A stretch of 64,000 nt of DNA from Sporosarcina sp. P33. Lineage in GTDB: Bacteria > Bacillota > Bacilli > Bacillales_A > Planococcaceae. A program made the position numbers and the translations under genes. The DNA lies in contig NZ_CP015027.1 in the NCBI RefSeq assembly GCF_002077155.1, positions 2,582,501 to 2,646,500 of the forward strand, given 5' to 3'. This document shows, in pieces, positions 3,994-19,902 of this stretch (its first letter is position 1; each line of letters opens with the position of its first letter). The notes under the pieces are model-generated. The model had not been told where the DNA came from, ran no database searches, and saw only the letters and a program-made list of their open reading frames with translations.

Positions 3994-6165
3994 TTATTTT
4001 GCTTTCTCCACTTGTTTTATATTGAGGATAAAGTTGGAAATTAGTTTTGCTGTTTGCTGACGGGTAGTGGAAGCAGAAGGCATATAATGGCCTTGGTCCC
4101 CGTTTGCAATATTCAATTCCGCCATCATCGCAATGGCATCTTTTGCTTCTTTATTGTAGTTGCCCAGATCACCGAATGGGGTAGAAGAAGCAGCTGTGTA
4201 TGGCTTGTCTGTGTAATTTTCATACGCACGTTTTATCATTTGTGCAAATTGCGCACGGGTCACCGGCTGGTTCGGCTGGAACTGATCACCGTGCCCTTTA
4301 ACAATTCCCTGTGCATACGCTGCCGCAATTTCATTTTGTGTAGCAGCCGCATAGTCTTTCAAGTCTTTGAAAGGGGAAGCAGTCACATGGTCAGTCGGCA
4401 ATTCCAGCGCTCTGACGATAAATGAAGTGGCCTGTGCTCTAGTCAGTTTGTTCCCCGGTTTGAATGCGTCCGTCTCTGTGCTGAGCAGATCGCGGTAATA
4501 TAAATCGGAAATGTACGGGTAAGACCAGTTATCCGTTGTCACATCAGCAAACGGAACTTTTGCCAGTATGCGTCCTTCAATGCCTTTTGACACGGTCTTC
4601 AATGACTTCAGATGATCCGCAAAGTTTTCCCAGTCTGAGAACCCCGGTTCACTGACGCGTCCCGCTTCATAAGCCTTGCCCAACGCTTCAAAGCCGTCGC
4701 CGCCGCGTGCAGTAAAGACATTTGTAGCTGCTTTGTACATTTTGCTGTCCGTTACTTCTATGCCGTCCACTTCTAATGAAACAATACGGCTGCCAACCGG
4801 TTTAGAAGGATCAAAAAGCAATTTCATACCCGCGGCATGTAAGAAACCGCCTGATTCTTTCGGATACTCTTTTACTGCGTGCTCAAAAGTAGATTTCAAC
4901 TCTGCGCCGCTGATTTCTACGATGGCCAGCGGGTTGCCAAAAGGCAGCACCGTCAGAACTTCTCCGTACGTAATTTCTCCTTTATCGATGGAAGAACGGA
5001 TTCCGCCGCCGTTTTGGAATGCGATGGACACATCAGAATCAATTTCTTTCGCTTTCTGCAGCATACCGTCCGTAATCAAGTTCCCCAGATTCGTTTCGCT
5101 AGCACGCACACCGCCCAGATTCCGCAGTCCATTCAGGAATACTTCAGAAGTTGCTCCGACCGGGCTCGCCATTCGTTCCTCCACTTGCTTCGTGTAAGGA
5201 GCCAGAATTTCAGCCGCGCCGGCATCACGCTCAGCTCCTTCGCCGCCAATCTCGTGAAGCTTTCCGCTGTAACTCGTAATTACTCCGTTTGAATCAAACT
5301 CCACGTCCAGTTGGCCAAGGAATTTATTGTATTCATTCGCTTGTACAATGACAACAGGATCCGTATCCGCATGGATCACTGCAGGCTCAGTGAGTTTAGA
5401 ATGTGTATGACCGCCGACAATAATATCAATTTCCGGCACGGCTTTCGCTAATTCCTGATCATTGTCGATTGCTTTATTATCGTCAAATCCAATATGCGTA
5501 ATCGCGATAATCTTATTAATTCCTTGAGCTTCAAATGCAGAGACCGCTTCTTTCGCTTCTGCAATATAATTCGTAAACGTCACTTTTTCAGGGCTGGAGA
5601 TCGACACAACTTCTTCCGTCGTCAAACCGAAGATTCCGATCTTCTCGCCGTTTACTTCTTTGATAATGCCATTATAAATCTGCCCATTTTCAGGTGAGTC
5701 AGTAATGATATCATTCTGCAGTCCGTCAAATAATGGATCTTTCGAGAAATCTACATTGGAAGATACGATAGGGAACTGGGCCGCTTTGACCATTTTGGCA
5801 AGGGACCCATGGCCATTTTCTGAGCGCCCGAGATCGAACTCGTGATTGCCGAACGTCATAGCGTCATAGCCGAGATAGTTCATAATTTTCATGTCCACTT
5901 CGCCTTCAAATTCATTGAAGTACAAGGTGCCGGAGAATACGTCCCCTGCATCGAGCAAGAGATTCGCAGGGTGTTCTTTTTTCAGTTTCTTAACGACTGC
6001 GGCGCGTTCGGGTGCATTGCCTACGTGTCCGTGTGTATCGTTCGAGTGCAGGACGGTCAGAGAGAACTTGTCCGTCTGATCTGCAGCGGCAATTGTCGGC
6101 GTGATAGATGCGGCAGACAGCAGCAGCGCAGACGCGGCGGTCCATTTGATCAGCTTCGTAGTCAT
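3994..6165 (-). CDS. SLH-anchored 5'-nucleotidase / cyclic-nucleotide phosphodiesterase
   Basis: A 723-residue exported enzyme of the UshA/YfkN type. A signal peptide covers about the first 30 residues and ends near TIAAADQ. The metallophosphatase domain has HSNDTHGH, LDAGD, GNHEFD and GGHTHS, the usual di-metal ligands; a 5'-nucleotidase C-terminal domain follows (QNGGGIR, GNPLAIVEISG, ARGGDGFEA). The last ~180 residues are three SLH repeats (KLTRAQAT, PVTRAQFA and a third degenerate copy), which bind pyruvylated wall polymer. It should release phosphate and nucleosides from external nucleotides at the surface. The ATG at 6165 sits 8 bases after AAAGGTGG; the GTG four codons earlier overlaps that site and is unlikely to be the start. 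Confidence 0.93.
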   Translation of the reverse strand: MTTKLIKWTAASALLLSAASITPTIAAADQTDKFSLTVLHSNDTHGHVGNAPERAAVVKKLKKEHPANLLLDAGDVFSGTLYFNEFEGEVDMKIMNYLGYDAMTFGNHEFDLGRSENGHGSLAKMVKAAQFPIVSSNVDFSKDPLFDGLQNDIITDSPENGQIYNGIIKEVNGEKIGIFGLTTEEVVSISSPEKVTFTNYIAEAKEAVSAFEAQGINKIIAITHIGFDDNKAIDNDQELAKAVPEIDIIVGGHTHSKLTEPAVIHADTDPVVIVQANEYNKFLGQLDVEFDSNGVITSYSGKLHEIGGEGAERDAGAAEILAPYTKQVEERMASPVGATSEVFLNGLRNLGGVRASETNLGNLITDGMLQKAKEIDSDVSIAFQNGGGIRSSIDKGEITYGEVLTVLPFGNPLAIVEISGAELKSTFEHAVKEYPKESGGFLHAAGMKLLFDPSKPVGSRIVSLEVDGIEVTDSKMYKAATNVFTARGGDGFEALGKAYEAGRVSEPGFSDWENFADHLKSLKTVSKGIEGRILAKVPFADVTTDNWSYPYISDLYYRDLLSTETDAFKPGNKLTRAQATSFIVRALELPTDHVTASPFKDLKDYAAATQNEIAAAYAQGIVKGHGDQFQPNQPVTRAQFAQMIKRAYENYTDKPYTAASSTPFGDLGNYNKEAKDAIAMMAELNIANGDQGHYMPSASTTRQQTAKLISNFILNIKQVEKAK

Positions 6166-6282
6166 AGACGTTTCCACCTTTCAATTTTGATAATACTGAA
6201 ATATAAGATTACTATACATAGTTTACCATTAAGCCGGTTAGGGGGCAATGAAGGGTGGAAGGAAATGGAGAATCCATTGAAC

Positions 6283-7092: not shown

Positions 7093-8769
7093 TTATTGCT
7101 TGCTGTAGTACTGATACAAACCTGTATAAATTGCATCCGCATAAATATTCATGTACGTCTCACTCGTAAGCTTCGCATAATCCTGTGAATTCGTCAGGAA
7201 GCCCAGCTCTACAAGTACAGCGGCCACGTTATTATTACGGATAACATAAAAACGATTGTTCTTCACTCCGCGGTCAGACATATTCGCCTTCTGGACGATA
7301 TTACGCTGAATGAAAGAAGCCAAATCGCGGCTTTCGTTGGCATTTACGTTAGAAGACGAATCATAGAACGTCTCTGCTCCTTTAGCAGCAAAGCCCGCCG
7401 CATTCACGTGAATTGAAACGAATGCTTCTGCGTAGTTCTTCTTTGCAAAGTCTGTTCGTGCTTCTAACGAATAATACTTATCTGTAGAACGCGTCATCAG
7501 CACTTTCGCGCCTGCATTCTTTAACTTTGCTTCTAATTTCTTAGACACATTCAACGTGATGGATTTTTCAGATTGGCCGTTCTTTCCGGTGCCCGGGTCA
7601 TGTCCGCCGTGGCCTGCGTCGACAACGATTACGCGGTCTTTCAATGGATTGCCTGTTTGATTCAATAACTTCAAATACGTTTTATGAACATAGCCCGTTG
7701 TGCTGCCGGTGCGAATTTTTGCCCAGTAGCCTGAAATGGAAAGTACTTCTACTTTCTGGCCTGCGTTCAGTTTGCCGATAGTAGCTGCACTTGAATTGCC
7801 TGCTGACCGGACGTTTAAGCCATTTACAGTTACTTTCCCCATTGTTTTTGCAGCAGGAGCCGGTTTTGGCGGTACTGTTACGGCAGGCGGTGCAGGTGTC
7901 GGGTTACTTGTTGCCACGTCATTTAAGTTAGGAGTTGTGAAGTACTCATGGATATATCCATCGACACCGTTGATGCGCACTTTTAGCCAGACACCTTCGC
8001 TTCCGGTGACTTCTACCAATCTGCCATTTTGCAGCACATCAATAATCGCGGAAGTATCCGACGGCGCACTGCGCACATTCAATGGATCTTTGTCATCACC
8101 TGTTTTTACACGCACGTATTTTACGCTGGACTGCTGATCAGGTGTTTTTACTGTCAATGCAAACTGCTTATCCATGGCACGTGCAACGAATAAAGCGAAT
8201 TGGGAGCGCGTCAGTTTATTATTCGGCAGGAATTTTTTATTGTCGCCTTGTGTAATGCCAGCATAATAAAGGCCGTTGATGCGATCCGCATATTTATGAT
8301 TGGCGACATCCGTCAGTCCTAATGGTTTTTGACTTGTGACTTTTTCAGACAGGTTAAATGCGACGGACATGGCATAAGCCATCTCGTCACGCTTAATTTC
8401 TTCGTTTGGTTTAAACTTACTACCGTCAGTTACCGGGAAGAAACCTTTTTGCAGTGCAATATTAGCAAACTTGTATTGTTCGCCATTTGGATTTAAGCCG
8501 TTGATGTTCATATTTTTCAAAGGAACATTTTCATTTCCTGTAGCGATAACCAGCATCTTCGCTACGTGTGATCGGCGAAGGTTATCACCCGGGTTGAACT
8601 TGACGGACTGGTTCACAATGCCTTTTTCGGCTATGTAATGGACTTCCTTGAAATATTCACGATCGGCTGGGACGTCGGAAAACTTAAAGCTTGCCAGGGA
8701 CTGAAGAGGTGAGAAAGCAAGAATCGTTAGCAGCAACAGACCGACTGTTGCCCATTTGAATTGTTTCAT
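7093..8769 (-). CDS. N-acetylmuramoyl-L-alanine amidase with SLH and SH3 domains
   Basis: A 558-residue secreted wall hydrolase. A signal peptide (about 1-27) is followed by three SLH repeats (about 28-205, third with NKLTRSQFALFVARAM), two bacterial SH3 domains (about 215-280 and 305-365, each with LNVRSA), a proline-rich linker between them and an Amidase_3 domain (about 375-555). Zinc ligands are visible: His in DAGHGGHD (about 386), a Glu before the helix of the KSITLNV segment region, His in SIHVNA (about 453), and the catalytic Glu in VELGFL (about 520). It cuts the bond between MurNAc and the stem peptide. SLH repeats at the N-terminus imply attachment to wall polymer. The start has a GGAGG site 8 bases upstream. 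Confidence 0.95.
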   Translation of the reverse strand: MKQFKWATVGLLLLTILAFSPLQSLASFKFSDVPADREYFKEVHYIAEKGIVNQSVKFNPGDNLRRSHVAKMLVIATGNENVPLKNMNINGLNPNGEQYKFANIALQKGFFPVTDGSKFKPNEEIKRDEMAYAMSVAFNLSEKVTSQKPLGLTDVANHKYADRINGLYYAGITQGDNKKFLPNNKLTRSQFALFVARAMDKQFALTVKTPDQQSSVKYVRVKTGDDKDPLNVRSAPSDTSAIIDVLQNGRLVEVTGSEGVWLKVRINGVDGYIHEYFTTPNLNDVATSNPTPAPPAVTVPPKPAPAAKTMGKVTVNGLNVRSAGNSSAATIGKLNAGQKVEVLSISGYWAKIRTGSTTGYVHKTYLKLLNQTGNPLKDRVIVVDAGHGGHDPGTGKNGQSEKSITLNVSKKLEAKLKNAGAKVLMTRSTDKYYSLEARTDFAKKNYAEAFVSIHVNAAGFAAKGAETFYDSSSNVNANESRDLASFIQRNIVQKANMSDRGVKNNRFYVIRNNNVAAVLVELGFLTNSQDYAKLTSETYMNIYADAIYTGLYQYYSKQ

Positions 8770-8985: not shown

Positions 8986-9897
8986 TCAATTATTGATACG
9001 ATCAATAAACTTATTCAATTGTCCAACTGATACTTTATCTGCTATACCGAATGTACCATCTAGGTAACCGGTAGTAATTTTGTGGTGGAATAGGATGTTG
9101 ATGTACTCAGTTGCCCAGTGACCCTTGGGAACATCAGAGAAATTCGCAATGGCTGATCCTCTTAATTCAAATGCTCCAACTAACACTTTTGCTAATTGAG
9201 CGCGAGTTAATTCTTTATCCGGGTTAAAGTTGCCGCCGTCCCCAGTAAAGATATTGGCTTCAGCTACTGCGGAAATCGCGTGATAATGCGGATTTGATTC
9301 GTCAACGTCTTTAAACGCAATATTCACAGTCGTCATATCAAGCTCCAGCTTTTCTGCCAATACTTGTGCAACTTCTCCGCGGGTTGCATAGACAATTTCT
9401 TTAACAGGAGCTGAAGCTGCAACCTGTTTCTCTTCTTTCGGAGCAGTTTCAGAGAAGTCTGCTACGCGGCGAGCGCCGATATAACGGCTTTTCCAATAGT
9501 ATGGATCATCCAGTGAGGAAACCATAACGCCTTTACTTACAGAAGCGTGAATGAAATTATTAGATCCGGAATAGATCCCTACATGTGATACACCGCGGCC
9601 TGAAGTATTGAAGAATACTAAATCTCCAACCTCTAGATTGCTTTTGGAAACAGGGGTTCCTGTAGCCATTTGCTGGCCTGTAGTTCGCGGTATCGATAAA
9701 CCTTCTTTTTTGAATACGTATTGTGTATATCCCGAGCAGTCAAATGCAGTAGGGGTTGTCCCGCCAAGTCGATAGGGGGTGCCCAAGTAATCACGTGCTG
9801 TGCTCATTAATGAAGTTGGTGAGTTTGCAGATGCAAATTCTGGTGCAAGTGAAAAGAATAATAGACTTGCCATAACCAGAGACAGTAGACGTTTCAT
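8986..9897 (-). CDS. NlpC/P60 endopeptidase with C-terminal SLH repeats
   Basis: A 303-residue secreted hydrolase. Signal peptide about 1-24 (cut near ASANS). The NlpC/P60 domain (about 27-145) has catalytic Cys54 (FDCSGY), His105 (VSHVGIY) and His117 (FIHAS). About 165-303 are SLH-like repeats (ELTRAQLAKVLVGAF; KGHWATEYI), the last one degenerate. The enzyme should cut D-Glu-gamma-meso-DAP type bonds in stem peptides while bound to wall polymer. Upstream of the gene lie three hexamers spaced by 5 bases that fit the WalR box, so control by WalRK is likely. It is the opposite domain order to the amidase next door, where SLH repeats come first. Confidence 0.93.
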   Translation of the reverse strand: MKRLLSLVMASLLFFSLAPEFASANSPTSLMSTARDYLGTPYRLGGTTPTAFDCSGYTQYVFKKEGLSIPRTTGQQMATGTPVSKSNLEVGDLVFFNTSGRGVSHVGIYSGSNNFIHASVSKGVMVSSLDDPYYWKSRYIGARRVADFSETAPKEEKQVAASAPVKEIVYATRGEVAQVLAEKLELDMTTVNIAFKDVDESNPHYHAISAVAEANIFTGDGGNFNPDKELTRAQLAKVLVGAFELRGSAIANFSDVPKGHWATEYINILFHHKITTGYLDGTFGIADKVSVGQLNKFIDRINN

Positions 9898-9981
9898 GCT
9901 GTTCTCAAATTCCCCTTTCGCACAATCATCTGTTGTGCTTTATAATCTAGGAATATACTAGCACGGATAAACATGAGATTT

Positions 9982-10009
9982 GTTACAGTTACATTACAAG
10001 AGAATTACA
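9982..10009 (-). promoter_or_regulatory. Three WalR-type hexamers upstream of the SLH NlpC/P60 gene
   Basis: Read on the minus strand: TGTAAT, 5 bases, TGTAAT, 5 bases, TGTAAC (plus coordinates 10004-10009, 9993-9998, 9982-9987). The WalR (YycF) consensus is TGTWAH-N5-TGTWAH, so this is two overlapping perfect boxes. They lie about 85-110 bases before the start codon, a usual place for WalR activation of wall hydrolase genes. Confidence 0.7.
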
Positions 10010-10190: not shown

Positions 10191-11288
10191 GTGAGTAAAG
10201 TAGTAGTCTTCAGTAATATGTATCCTTCCGCAGAGCATCCTACCTACGGAATCTTTGTGAAAAATCAAGTGGAACAATTAAAAAGTGCCGGAACAGACGT
10301 AAAAGTCATTGCGATTCATGAACCGGGGAAAAGTCCAATAGATAAAATAACAAAATATCTGTCATGGGGCATCAGCTCTCTGCTGTATGTACTGCGGAAT
10401 AAAAAGAAAATCGGCATAACGCATGCGCATTATGCATTTCCTACAGGTTTATTGTCGCTGATGGCGAAGAAGTTATTTAATATTCCGTACGTTGTCACGG
10501 TACATGGCGGAGATCTTGATAAAATGGCGAAGAAAAGTGCTCGCATTGCTAATTACACCAAACAAATTTTGCAGGAAGCGGCATCTGTCATCACAGTAGG
10601 GGAGAAGCTTCATGATCATGTAATCCATGACTACGGCATTGCGCCGCAAAAAGTAGAAATAATGAGTATGGGCGTGGACACGAATATATTTAAAACGATG
10701 GCGCAGGAGGAAGTGCGTTTATTGCTGGATGTGCCTTTGAATGAACGGGTGCTGATCTTTGTGGGCAATGTGATTGAAGCAAAAGGCGTCATGGAATTGC
10801 TGGATGCATTTGAACAGCTGCGCAAAACACATGATGATCTGCTTCTCTATATAATAGGCTCGCAAAAGGATGAACGTTTTACAGCGGCAGTAAAAGAAAA
10901 GGCTGCCGGTAATAAAGATATCCGTTTTAAAGAGCCTGTCAGCCAGACGGAATTATCCAAATGGATGTCTGCAGCTGATATTCTCGTTCTGCCTTCCTAT
11001 CATGAAGGATTTGGCCTCGTTGCGCTCGAGGCACTGGTGTCCGGTGCGAAAGTCGTAGCATCGAATGTCGGCGGACTGCCGTACTTACTGAAAGATGGTG
11101 CAGGAACGCTTGTTGAGCCGCGTGACGCCCATTCTCTTGCAGCCGGACTGGAACAGGCCCTTGCGAATGAAGTAACAAGAGAGCAGCATGAAACTGCACA
11201 GCAGATCATTCAGCAACATTCTTCAGAAGTAATCGTCAAGAGATTGAACGATATCTATGAAAAGAATGGAAAGGGATTCACTTCATGA
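10191..11288 (+). CDS. GT4-family glycosyltransferase
   Basis: A 365-residue GT-B fold enzyme. The N-terminal half has YGIFVKNQV, HAHYAFPTG and VTVHGGD, the acceptor-side motifs of group 1 transferases; the C-terminal half has FVGNVIEAKG, then PSYHEGFGLVALEAL, the E-x7-E motif that binds the nucleotide sugar, and NVGGLPYLL. GTG at 10191 is used, ten bases after AAAGGA. It overlaps the flippase gene by four bases (ATGA), so both are translated together. The pair suggests assembly and export of a lipid-linked sugar chain, possibly for wall polymer or capsule. The sugar and acceptor cannot be read from sequence. Confidence 0.9.
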   Translation: MSKVVVFSNMYPSAEHPTYGIFVKNQVEQLKSAGTDVKVIAIHEPGKSPIDKITKYLSWGISSLLYVLRNKKKIGITHAHYAFPTGLLSLMAKKLFNIPYVVTVHGGDLDKMAKKSARIANYTKQILQEAASVITVGEKLHDHVIHDYGIAPQKVEIMSMGVDTNIFKTMAQEEVRLLLDVPLNERVLIFVGNVIEAKGVMELLDAFEQLRKTHDDLLLYIIGSQKDERFTAAVKEKAAGNKDIRFKEPVSQTELSKWMSAADILVLPSYHEGFGLVALEALVSGAKVVASNVGGLPYLLKDGAGTLVEPRDAHSLAAGLEQALANEVTREQHETAQQIIQQHSSEVIVKRLNDIYEKNGKGFTS

Positions 11289-15299: not shown

Positions 15300-16001
15300 T
15301 TATTTTATGTCCGTGAAGCGCTTAAAGCCCATGAAACGCGTATTCCAGTATGAAGAATCCAATGATGCAATCTCAATTTCTTTCACACCTGCGTGAATGA
15401 ACTTATTGTCTCCAAGGTAAATCCCGATATGTGAAATGCCGGGACGATATGTATTTTGGAAAAACAACAAATCTCCCACTGAAGGATCTTTGACGAAAAC
15501 TGAACGGTTAAAGAATCCGATCGTATCCAGTCTAGGGACTTTCACACCTGCCTGGTTGAACGTATAGTAAATAAATCCGCTGCAATCAAATCCCGAAGGA
15601 GTTACGCCGGCCCATACATAAGGGATTCCTTGAAGGGGCATTGCGATATCCACCAATCTAGTGCTCAACGCATTGGATGGTGCACTTGTAACCAGCGTTT
15701 TCGGCTGTGTGACAGGTTTACTTGATGACAATGTGCCGGTAAATGAATTAGTAGAAGATACAGCTTTCGACGAGTTCACTTTATTTTCTACAATCAGCTT
15801 CTGTTTCACCTTAATGTTATTTGAAGTAAGAGAGTTCAGACGCTTTAATTCAGTTACGGTAATCTTGTATTGAGTAGAAATCTTATAAAGAGTTTCTCCC
15901 GGCTGCACGATATGCGTTTTTGACGCAGCGGCAACACTGCCTACAGATATGCTTGTTGCCAGCATAAGAGAGGCAATCGCGGTTAGAGCAATTTTCTTCA
16001 T
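15300..16001 (-). CDS. LysM-NlpC/P60 cell-wall endopeptidase
   Basis: A 233-residue secreted hydrolase. Signal peptide about 1-26; one LysM domain at about 28-72 (HIVQPGETLYKIS) that binds glycan; a Ser/Thr/Lys-rich linker; NlpC/P60 domain from about 112 with Cys140 (FDCSGF), His191 (ISHIGIY) and His203 (FIHAG). The layout is a reduced form of B. subtilis LytE/CwlS, which have three or more LysM units. No WalR-type box was found in the 100 bases upstream, unlike the two other NlpC/P60 genes in the window. Confidence 0.93.
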   Translation of the reverse strand: MKKIALTAIASLMLATSISVGSVAAASKTHIVQPGETLYKISTQYKITVTELKRLNSLTSNNIKVKQKLIVENKVNSSKAVSSTNSFTGTLSSSKPVTQPKTLVTSAPSNALSTRLVDIAMPLQGIPYVWAGVTPSGFDCSGFIYYTFNQAGVKVPRLDTIGFFNRSVFVKDPSVGDLLFFQNTYRPGISHIGIYLGDNKFIHAGVKEIEIASLDSSYWNTRFMGFKRFTDIK

Positions 16002-19885: not shown

Positions 19886-19902
19886 TGTTACATTACTGTA
19901 AT
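19886..19902 (+). promoter_or_regulatory. WalR-type box upstream of the small NlpC/P60 gene
   Basis: TGTTAC-ATTAC-TGTAAT is a perfect match to TGTWAH-N5-TGTWAH. It lies about 93-109 bases before the start codon. The WalRK system controls essential wall hydrolases in Bacillales, which fits the downstream gene. Confidence 0.7.

Follow-up and report, generated by a model that had tools for sequence, protein, structure and literature searches.

Results

Three WalR-type half-sites precede the gene of an SLH-bearing hydrolase

In Sporosarcina sp. P33, the response regulator WalR probably activates the gene of an NlpC/P60 hydrolase through an array of three direct-repeat half-sites; the product would be a D,L-endopeptidase of the LytE/CwlO kind with SLH repeats as its wall-binding module. 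The window, i.e., the whole stretch of DNA that was analyzed, comprises 64,000 nucleotides. The gene and the array occupy the following positions in it:

8986 to 9897, minus strand: NlpC/P60 and SLH hydrolase gene, 303 aa, with Pfam PF00877 and PF00395 above the cut-off
10004 to 10009, minus strand: half-site 1, TGTAAT (in 51 orthologues: TGTAAT 34, TGTAAC 16, TGTTAC 1)
9993 to 9998, minus strand: half-site 2, TGTAAT, common to both boxes (in 51 orthologues: TGTAAT 45, TGTAAC 1, CGTAAT 5)
9982 to 9987, minus strand: half-site 3, TGTAAC, adjoining the expected -35 (in 51 orthologues: TGTAAC 38, TGTAAT 13)

As the preliminary description had claimed, three TGTAA(T/C) hexamers separated by 5-nt spacers (tctct and gtaac) are present; they run from 10009 to 9982 on the minus strand and form two overlapping TGTWAH-N5-TGTWAH boxes (9993-10009 and 9982-9998, minus strand). 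The same pattern is given for the WalR box in the accessible portions of two publications (PMC9210968, PMC4168254). The array ends 84 nt 5' of the ATG at 9897. Exact boxes number four in the window versus 0.35 expected, and the exact triple appeared in none of 60 shuffles of the window. A lone double box carries little weight, because the genome contains 26 of them versus 16 for the reversed control pattern; the exact triple occurs only once in the 3.24-Mb genome, as this array, with no control matches. The prediction that the array is a WalR operator is well supported by the box pattern (two direct repeats with a 5-nt spacer, present twice), by conservation and by the presence of an encoded WalR.

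The hydrolase scored 112.7 bits for NlpC/P60 (residues 39-144) and 68.6 bits for SLH, with two SLH stretches above the curated Pfam cut-off and a partial third recognized by eye. Residues C54, H105 and H117, which we take to be the Cys-His-His catalytic triad of NlpC/P60 enzymes, are unchanged throughout 21 aligned sequences. The protein is thus a putative NlpC/P60 D,L-endopeptidase, expected to cut the bond between D-Glu and the diamino acid. The Pfam scan found no LysM in it, so we regard it as a functional analogue of LytE/CwlO and not as their orthologue. Nothing seen in this 303-aa enzyme pointed to lattice formation as in an S-layer protein.

The genome has seven NlpC/P60 matches and 62 SLH repeat matches, the latter grouped by eye into 24 loci. 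A gene for a CsaB-type pyruvyl transferase, an enzyme that serves SLH anchoring, spans the left window edge (G000:C1:2581662-2582546, G000 being the genome of the window). Further SLH genes lie beside it, just left of the window. The SLH neighbors of the hydrolase gene, also on the minus strand, encode a 5'-nucleotidase with SLH (3994-6177) and an SLH, SH3 and amidase protein (7093-8769).

The array and the likely promoter are conserved in Sporosarcina

The search of 61 Sporosarcina genomes, the own one included, yielded 51 full-length orthologues (aligned from query residue 1-2 to at least 300), three N-terminal-only matches and seven weaker ones; upstream regions were read for all 51 orthologues, own included. 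The preliminary description had made its reading depend on conservation of the site in relatives, and conserved it is. The exact triple stands upstream of 46 of the 51 orthologues (0 in 10,200 shuffled 400-nt upstream regions) and the other five differ by one base; the middle half-site is CGTAAT at L076, L077, L079, L082 and L083. Information per column was 1.82, 1.90 and 1.86 bits for half-sites 1 to 3, compared with 0.67 for spacer 1, 1.34 for spacer 2 and 0.26 for the 25-nt 5' flank. The sixth base is T or C, never A, in all 153 half-sites of the 51 promoters. Since the protein identities of the 50 relatives to the hydrolase of the window span 53 to 88 percent, conservation of the triple is not just a matter of recent descent. 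Altogether, the 61 genomes contain 117 exact triples, at least one in 59 of them, versus seven for the reversed control.

The promoter and the 5' leader contain the following elements:

9955 to 9963, minus strand: likely extended -10, TGC TAGTAT, read from the sequence, 18 nt 3' of half-site 3
9920 to 9938, minus strand: possible 5'-UTR hairpin, GCACAA...TTGTGC, directly 5' of the Shine-Dalgarno and 3' of the likely start
9912 to 9918, minus strand: Shine-Dalgarno AAAGGGG, read from the sequence

An extended -10 match (TGNTANNNT) begins 18-20 nt past half-site 3 in 49 of the 51 orthologues; for the remaining two, L057 and L058, the automatic pick fell 14 nt past the last half-site. The simple -35/-10 scan did not list the element at 9955-9963. 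Counted from the start expected by the extended -10, the array ends at about -35. Activator-dependent promoters typically combine an extended -10 with a weak -35. The predicted promoter geometry suits WalR activation. The Shine-Dalgarno (GAAAGGGG) was recognized by eye in 47 of the 51 orthologue rows.

A 4-7 bp stem like that of the hairpin is present in 45 of the 51 orthologues, the other six having a different best pairing. Some compensatory changes were noted across orthologues L038-L088 (GCGCAA/TTGCGC, ACACAT/ATGTGT, CACTGT/ACGGTG). Compared with simple shuffles, the leader fold energy was only weakly lower, with a mean z of -0.74 and 18 of 51 leaders below -1, and RNAalifold on the MAFFT alignment returned no pairs. 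Tentatively, the inverted repeat at 9938-9920 may form a 5' hairpin in the mRNA and serve as an RNA element.

The likely regulator and the proposed mode of control

The walR gene (G000:C1:1833372-1834064) encodes a protein scoring 459 bits against a cut-off of 340 and is followed by genes for WalK (862 bits, cut-off 725), YycH, YycI and an MBL-fold protein. The DNA-binding domain of this WalR aligns with two solved domains, those of YycF (2d1v, over 107 residues) and WalR (2zxj, over 109 residues), which we take to come from B. subtilis and S. aureus, respectively. All three share GDVRTVDVT(I/V)RRLREKIED, a stretch that presumably contains the recognition helix.

With WalR itself counted, the genome encodes 13 proteins that match the WalR model over nearly its full length, and the second best (278 bits) looks PhoP-like by eye. 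Another OmpR-family regulator, chiefly this paralogue, might therefore bind the array and put the gene under phosphate instead of wall control; we consider this very unlikely. The reverse complement of TGTWAA does resemble the Pho box consensus, and TGTWAA-type triples are located between transporter and phosphodiesterase-like genes (by eye). However, a reversed Pho box needs half-sites ending in A, of which there are none among the 153 at the 51 orthologues, which argues against it. The helix of the PhoP-like protein, GDSRIVDVHISHLREKIE, differs from the corresponding WalR region, and at least 72 of the 117 triples in the genus are found at NlpC/P60 genes. The orientation of the repeats is weakened as a sure mark of WalR versus PhoP by S. 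aureus, in which it does not predict the mode of control (PMC10746227). Mostly A-ending arrays or boxes, which are Pho-box-like when reversed, were also seen (L108, L111, G000:C1:15459, G000:C1:2133591), lying by ABC-transporter, phosphate-cotransporter-like and alkaline-phosphatase-like genes (by eye).

If WalR is the ligand, it could repress the hydrolase gene, as it does iseA in B. subtilis. Half-site 3 abuts the expected -35, so occlusion is conceivable, and the available text on C. difficile reports that WalR overexpression represses, approximately 4-fold, an NlpC/P60 gene preceded by two putative WalR sites (PMC9210968). Our confidence in activation was lowered slightly because of this result, from high to fairly high. 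Repression nevertheless seems improbable, given the combination of an extended -10 and a weak -35 and given that in S. aureus, according to the part of the source at hand, WalR sites 5' of the -35 accompany activation, with no significant effect of orientation (PMC10746227). Finally, the array might mainly serve the divergent glycosyltransferase gene at 10191 and not the hydrolase gene. All 13 inspected NlpC/P60-SLH loci, own included, do have a GT4 gene that starts in the shared intergenic region and runs the opposite way. Against this, the distance between the array and the extended -10 is kept on the hydrolase side whereas the 25 nt on the glycosyltransferase side are not conserved, and the array is still present at the three SLH-less orthologues, whose neighbor in place of the glycosyltransferase gene is a co-directional transporter gene. 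Such a role is extremely unlikely.

In the preferred scheme of activation, phosphorylated WalR would bind the three half-sites, spaced 11 bp apart on one DNA face and ending near the -35, and would activate the extended -10 promoter of the secreted NlpC/P60 D,L-endopeptidase. The SLH repeats would bind the pyruvylated secondary cell wall polymer and thus hold the enzyme on the wall. A feedback like that involving LytE and CwlO of B. subtilis would operate: upon low wall cutting, WalRK would raise the endopeptidase output. We infer the binding, activation, enzyme specificity, anchoring and feedback from sequence and from precedent. According to the excerpts available for B. subtilis, transcription of lytE, a gene with two WalR sites, is abolished when one of the sites carries a point mutation, and WalRK responds to the products of endopeptidases (PMC7299342); cwlO and lytE are both listed under WalR, and their double deletion is impossible (PMC10653849). 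For C. difficile, the excerpt states that no annotated peptidoglycan gene changed upon wal knock-down (PMC9210968). The middle half-site, common to both boxes, would be unable to serve two separate dimers at once, so WalR may bind in competing registers or as a head-to-tail chain. The hydrolase promoter is a handy case for learning how WalR uses three half-sites.

The array accompanies the catalytic domain more than the SLH anchor

The SLH-less orthologues in G003, G005 and G013 keep the triple and end in a Pro/Lys/Ala-rich tail; Pfam found no SLH in the G003 protein, and these three genomes gave no match to the SLH S-layer-like protein of the own genome. In the 61 genomes, at least 72 of the 117 exact triples lie within 250 nt 5' of a same-strand NlpC/P60 match, in at least 58 genomes; 46 of these triples belong to the hydrolase orthologues, and 45 of the 117 triples are elsewhere (among the matches listed). 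The triple also stands before single-domain NlpC/P60 genes (L092, L093) and before two NlpC/P60 paralogues that carry SLH-like repeats (L094, L095), and the paralogues L096 and L097 have one double box each. The window contains a further site of this kind:

19886 to 19902, plus strand: WalR-type box before the single-domain NlpC/P60 gene 19983-20453, with a third half-site, one base off, upstream

In relatives, exact triples occur 5' of single-domain NlpC/P60 genes. Elsewhere in the own genome, a degenerate triple accompanies an SLH-NlpC paralogue near 875 kb, and the box at an SH3-NlpC gene near 2550 kb is reversed. Upstream boxes are absent from the SLH and NlpC gene near 678 kb, the NlpC/P60 gene near 1631 kb and the LysM-NlpC/P60 gene at 15300-16001, which has the LytE-like architecture in the window yet lacks a box. 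The predicted WalR-type control is therefore not a property of every NlpC/P60 gene. Because SLH-less orthologues and other NlpC/P60 genes keep the array, this control appears tied to the catalytic domain more than to SLH.

The preliminary description had placed an S-layer-type hydrolase under the WalRK system. WalR control is well supported by the conserved array, the matching WalR and the promoter geometry; the S-layer part holds only partly, as the hydrolase bears SLH and three SLH-less orthologues keep the array. The proposed genome scan for boxes before other SLH genes went against a broader link: 22 of the 24 SLH loci lack an exact upstream box (same strand, counted by eye). With such a box at only two loci, one of them a putative S-layer gene, general WalR control of SLH genes was rejected.

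A box upstream of a putative S-layer gene

Nine of the 26 boxes in the genome have T or C as the sixth base in both half-sites (by eye), and six of these, at five promoters, precede envelope genes: the NlpC/P60-SLH gene (two boxes), the single-domain NlpC/P60 gene of the window, a LysM and 3D gene of the YocH type (Pfam), an SLH and Ig-like gene (Pfam) and the tatD-yabE region. For the last, the names were assigned by eye, the tatD start is uncertain and the yabE-like frame lies approximately 970 nt further on. The remaining three boxes lie by a csoR-like gene and within two unrelated genes.

The SLH and Ig-like gene (genome positions 2545983-2548481) encodes an S-layer-like protein of 833 aa, and its box is at G000:C1:2545698-2545714 (L098, 1199-1215). 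It is found at the own gene and at four full-length orthologues of 73-76% identity (L139-L142), and the corresponding position is boxless in L143 (63%), L144 (81% over 330 residues, with another box at -61) and L145 (41%). Among 21 upstream regions of relatives and paralogues, a forward exact box is present in six, a reverse one in one and none in 14. The box lies roughly 70 nt 5' of the likely -35 (by eye). We did not accept it as proof of co-regulation, with 14 of the 21 upstream regions boxless and the position far from the likely promoter.

The suggestion that surface layer and wall growth are joined finds no support at the 22 boxless SLH loci and retains this one putative S-layer gene, boxed in the own genome and four close relatives and not at that place in three others. 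It is doubtful that WalR directly governs both the SLH-anchored endopeptidase and this main SLH S-layer-like protein, and that it occupies the three half-sites as a head-to-tail chain. If it did, surface-layer supply and wall opening would be under one essential regulator in this Sporosarcina clade.

Comparison with known systems

LytE and CwlO of B. subtilis have LysM repeats or a coiled-coil N terminus. Like them, the enzyme described here is a secreted NlpC/P60 protein encoded behind WalR-type direct repeats; unlike them, it has SLH repeats in place of these modules, and the two boxes, as predicted WalR sites, overlap in one triple, lytE being compared by description. More than one WalR site upstream is a feature shared with lytE, according to the part of the source available (PMC7299342).

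With the canonical TGTWAH-N5-TGTWAH box the array shares the half-site, the direct orientation and the 5-nt spacing, and it differs in having three half-sites and only T or C as the sixth base at 51 promoters. Tandem Pho boxes of PhoP/PhoB are likewise head-to-tail hexamers 11 bp apart beside the -35, but their base preference and the expected regulator differ.

The S-layer protein family of C. difficile is anchored by CWB2. Two of its members, Cwp16 and Cwp17, have amidase domains by prediction and are likewise wall hydrolases tied to WalR in the accessible portion of PMC9210968; the anchor family and the hydrolase class differ from those found here, and the tie rests on RNA-seq there and on sequence here. 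The same portion states that WalR affects S-layer genes in C. difficile, two of them with predicted amidase domains, and that, for B. anthracis, WalRK has been suggested as the regulator of a gene for an S-layer protein (PMC9210968). Because of these precedents, a tie between WalR and surface-layer proteins is not new. The literature matches listed contained none on WalR in Sporosarcina and none on WalR as the regulator of an SLH-NlpC/P60 gene. That WalR controls NlpC/P60 enzymes is already well known; our analysis would add an SLH-anchored member and a conserved triple operator, extending the scheme to another anchor type without constituting a new kind of system.

Triple arrays and double boxes outside Sporosarcina

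Relatives matching over both domains were taken from 80 named loci, with start codons picked automatically. The exact forward double box precedes the genes of such relatives in Metabacillus, Cytobacillus, Bacillus (2), Fictibacillus, Halobacillus (3) and Alkalicoccus; eight of these boxes lie at -75 to -119 and one at -227. The eight Lysinibacillus relatives have a forward box near -195 in three cases, a reverse one only in two and none in three, and no box was found at the relatives from Salimicrobium and Domibacillus (two) (L183, L184, L186).

In other genera of the family, six of the 13 inspected triple loci lie before NlpC/P60 genes, assigned by Pfam for L254 and L261 and by eye for L255, L256, L259 and L263; the other seven precede FtsW-like, OppA-like and other genes. 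Outside the family, NlpC/P60 was the picked downstream frame at none of 30 triple loci, eight of which yielded no downstream frame at all. TGTWAY triples were found in 79 of 299 genomes class-wide (control: six matches in five genomes), which rules out triple arrays as a Sporosarcina speciality; the counts of 6/13 within and 0/30 outside the family likewise rule out that triples always stand at hydrolases. The triple is, as a sequence pattern, a recurrent architecture, and its link to NlpC/P60 is seen within the family.

The NlpC/P60 protein of L255 has SH3-like repeats (by eye). WalR-type sites thus stay with the endopeptidase as its wall-binding part varies among SLH, a Pro/Lys-rich tail (three relatives), none (single-domain) and SH3-like repeats (L255). 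This comparative argument suggests that WalRK homeostasis tracks the bond that is cut, not the anchor.

Several triples accompany genes of other kinds. Some lie just 5' of FtsW/RodA-like genes (names by eye) in two Sporosarcina genomes (L134, L136) and in two genomes of another genus (L257, L258). In other families, TGTWAY triples precede a helix-turn-helix and CBS-domain gene, YtoI-like by eye (L270-L273, L281, L283, L284, L291, L292). In Staphylococcus-looking genomes, the genus being guessed, they are located before a gene for a small secreted protein that is IsaB-like by eye (L274-L276).
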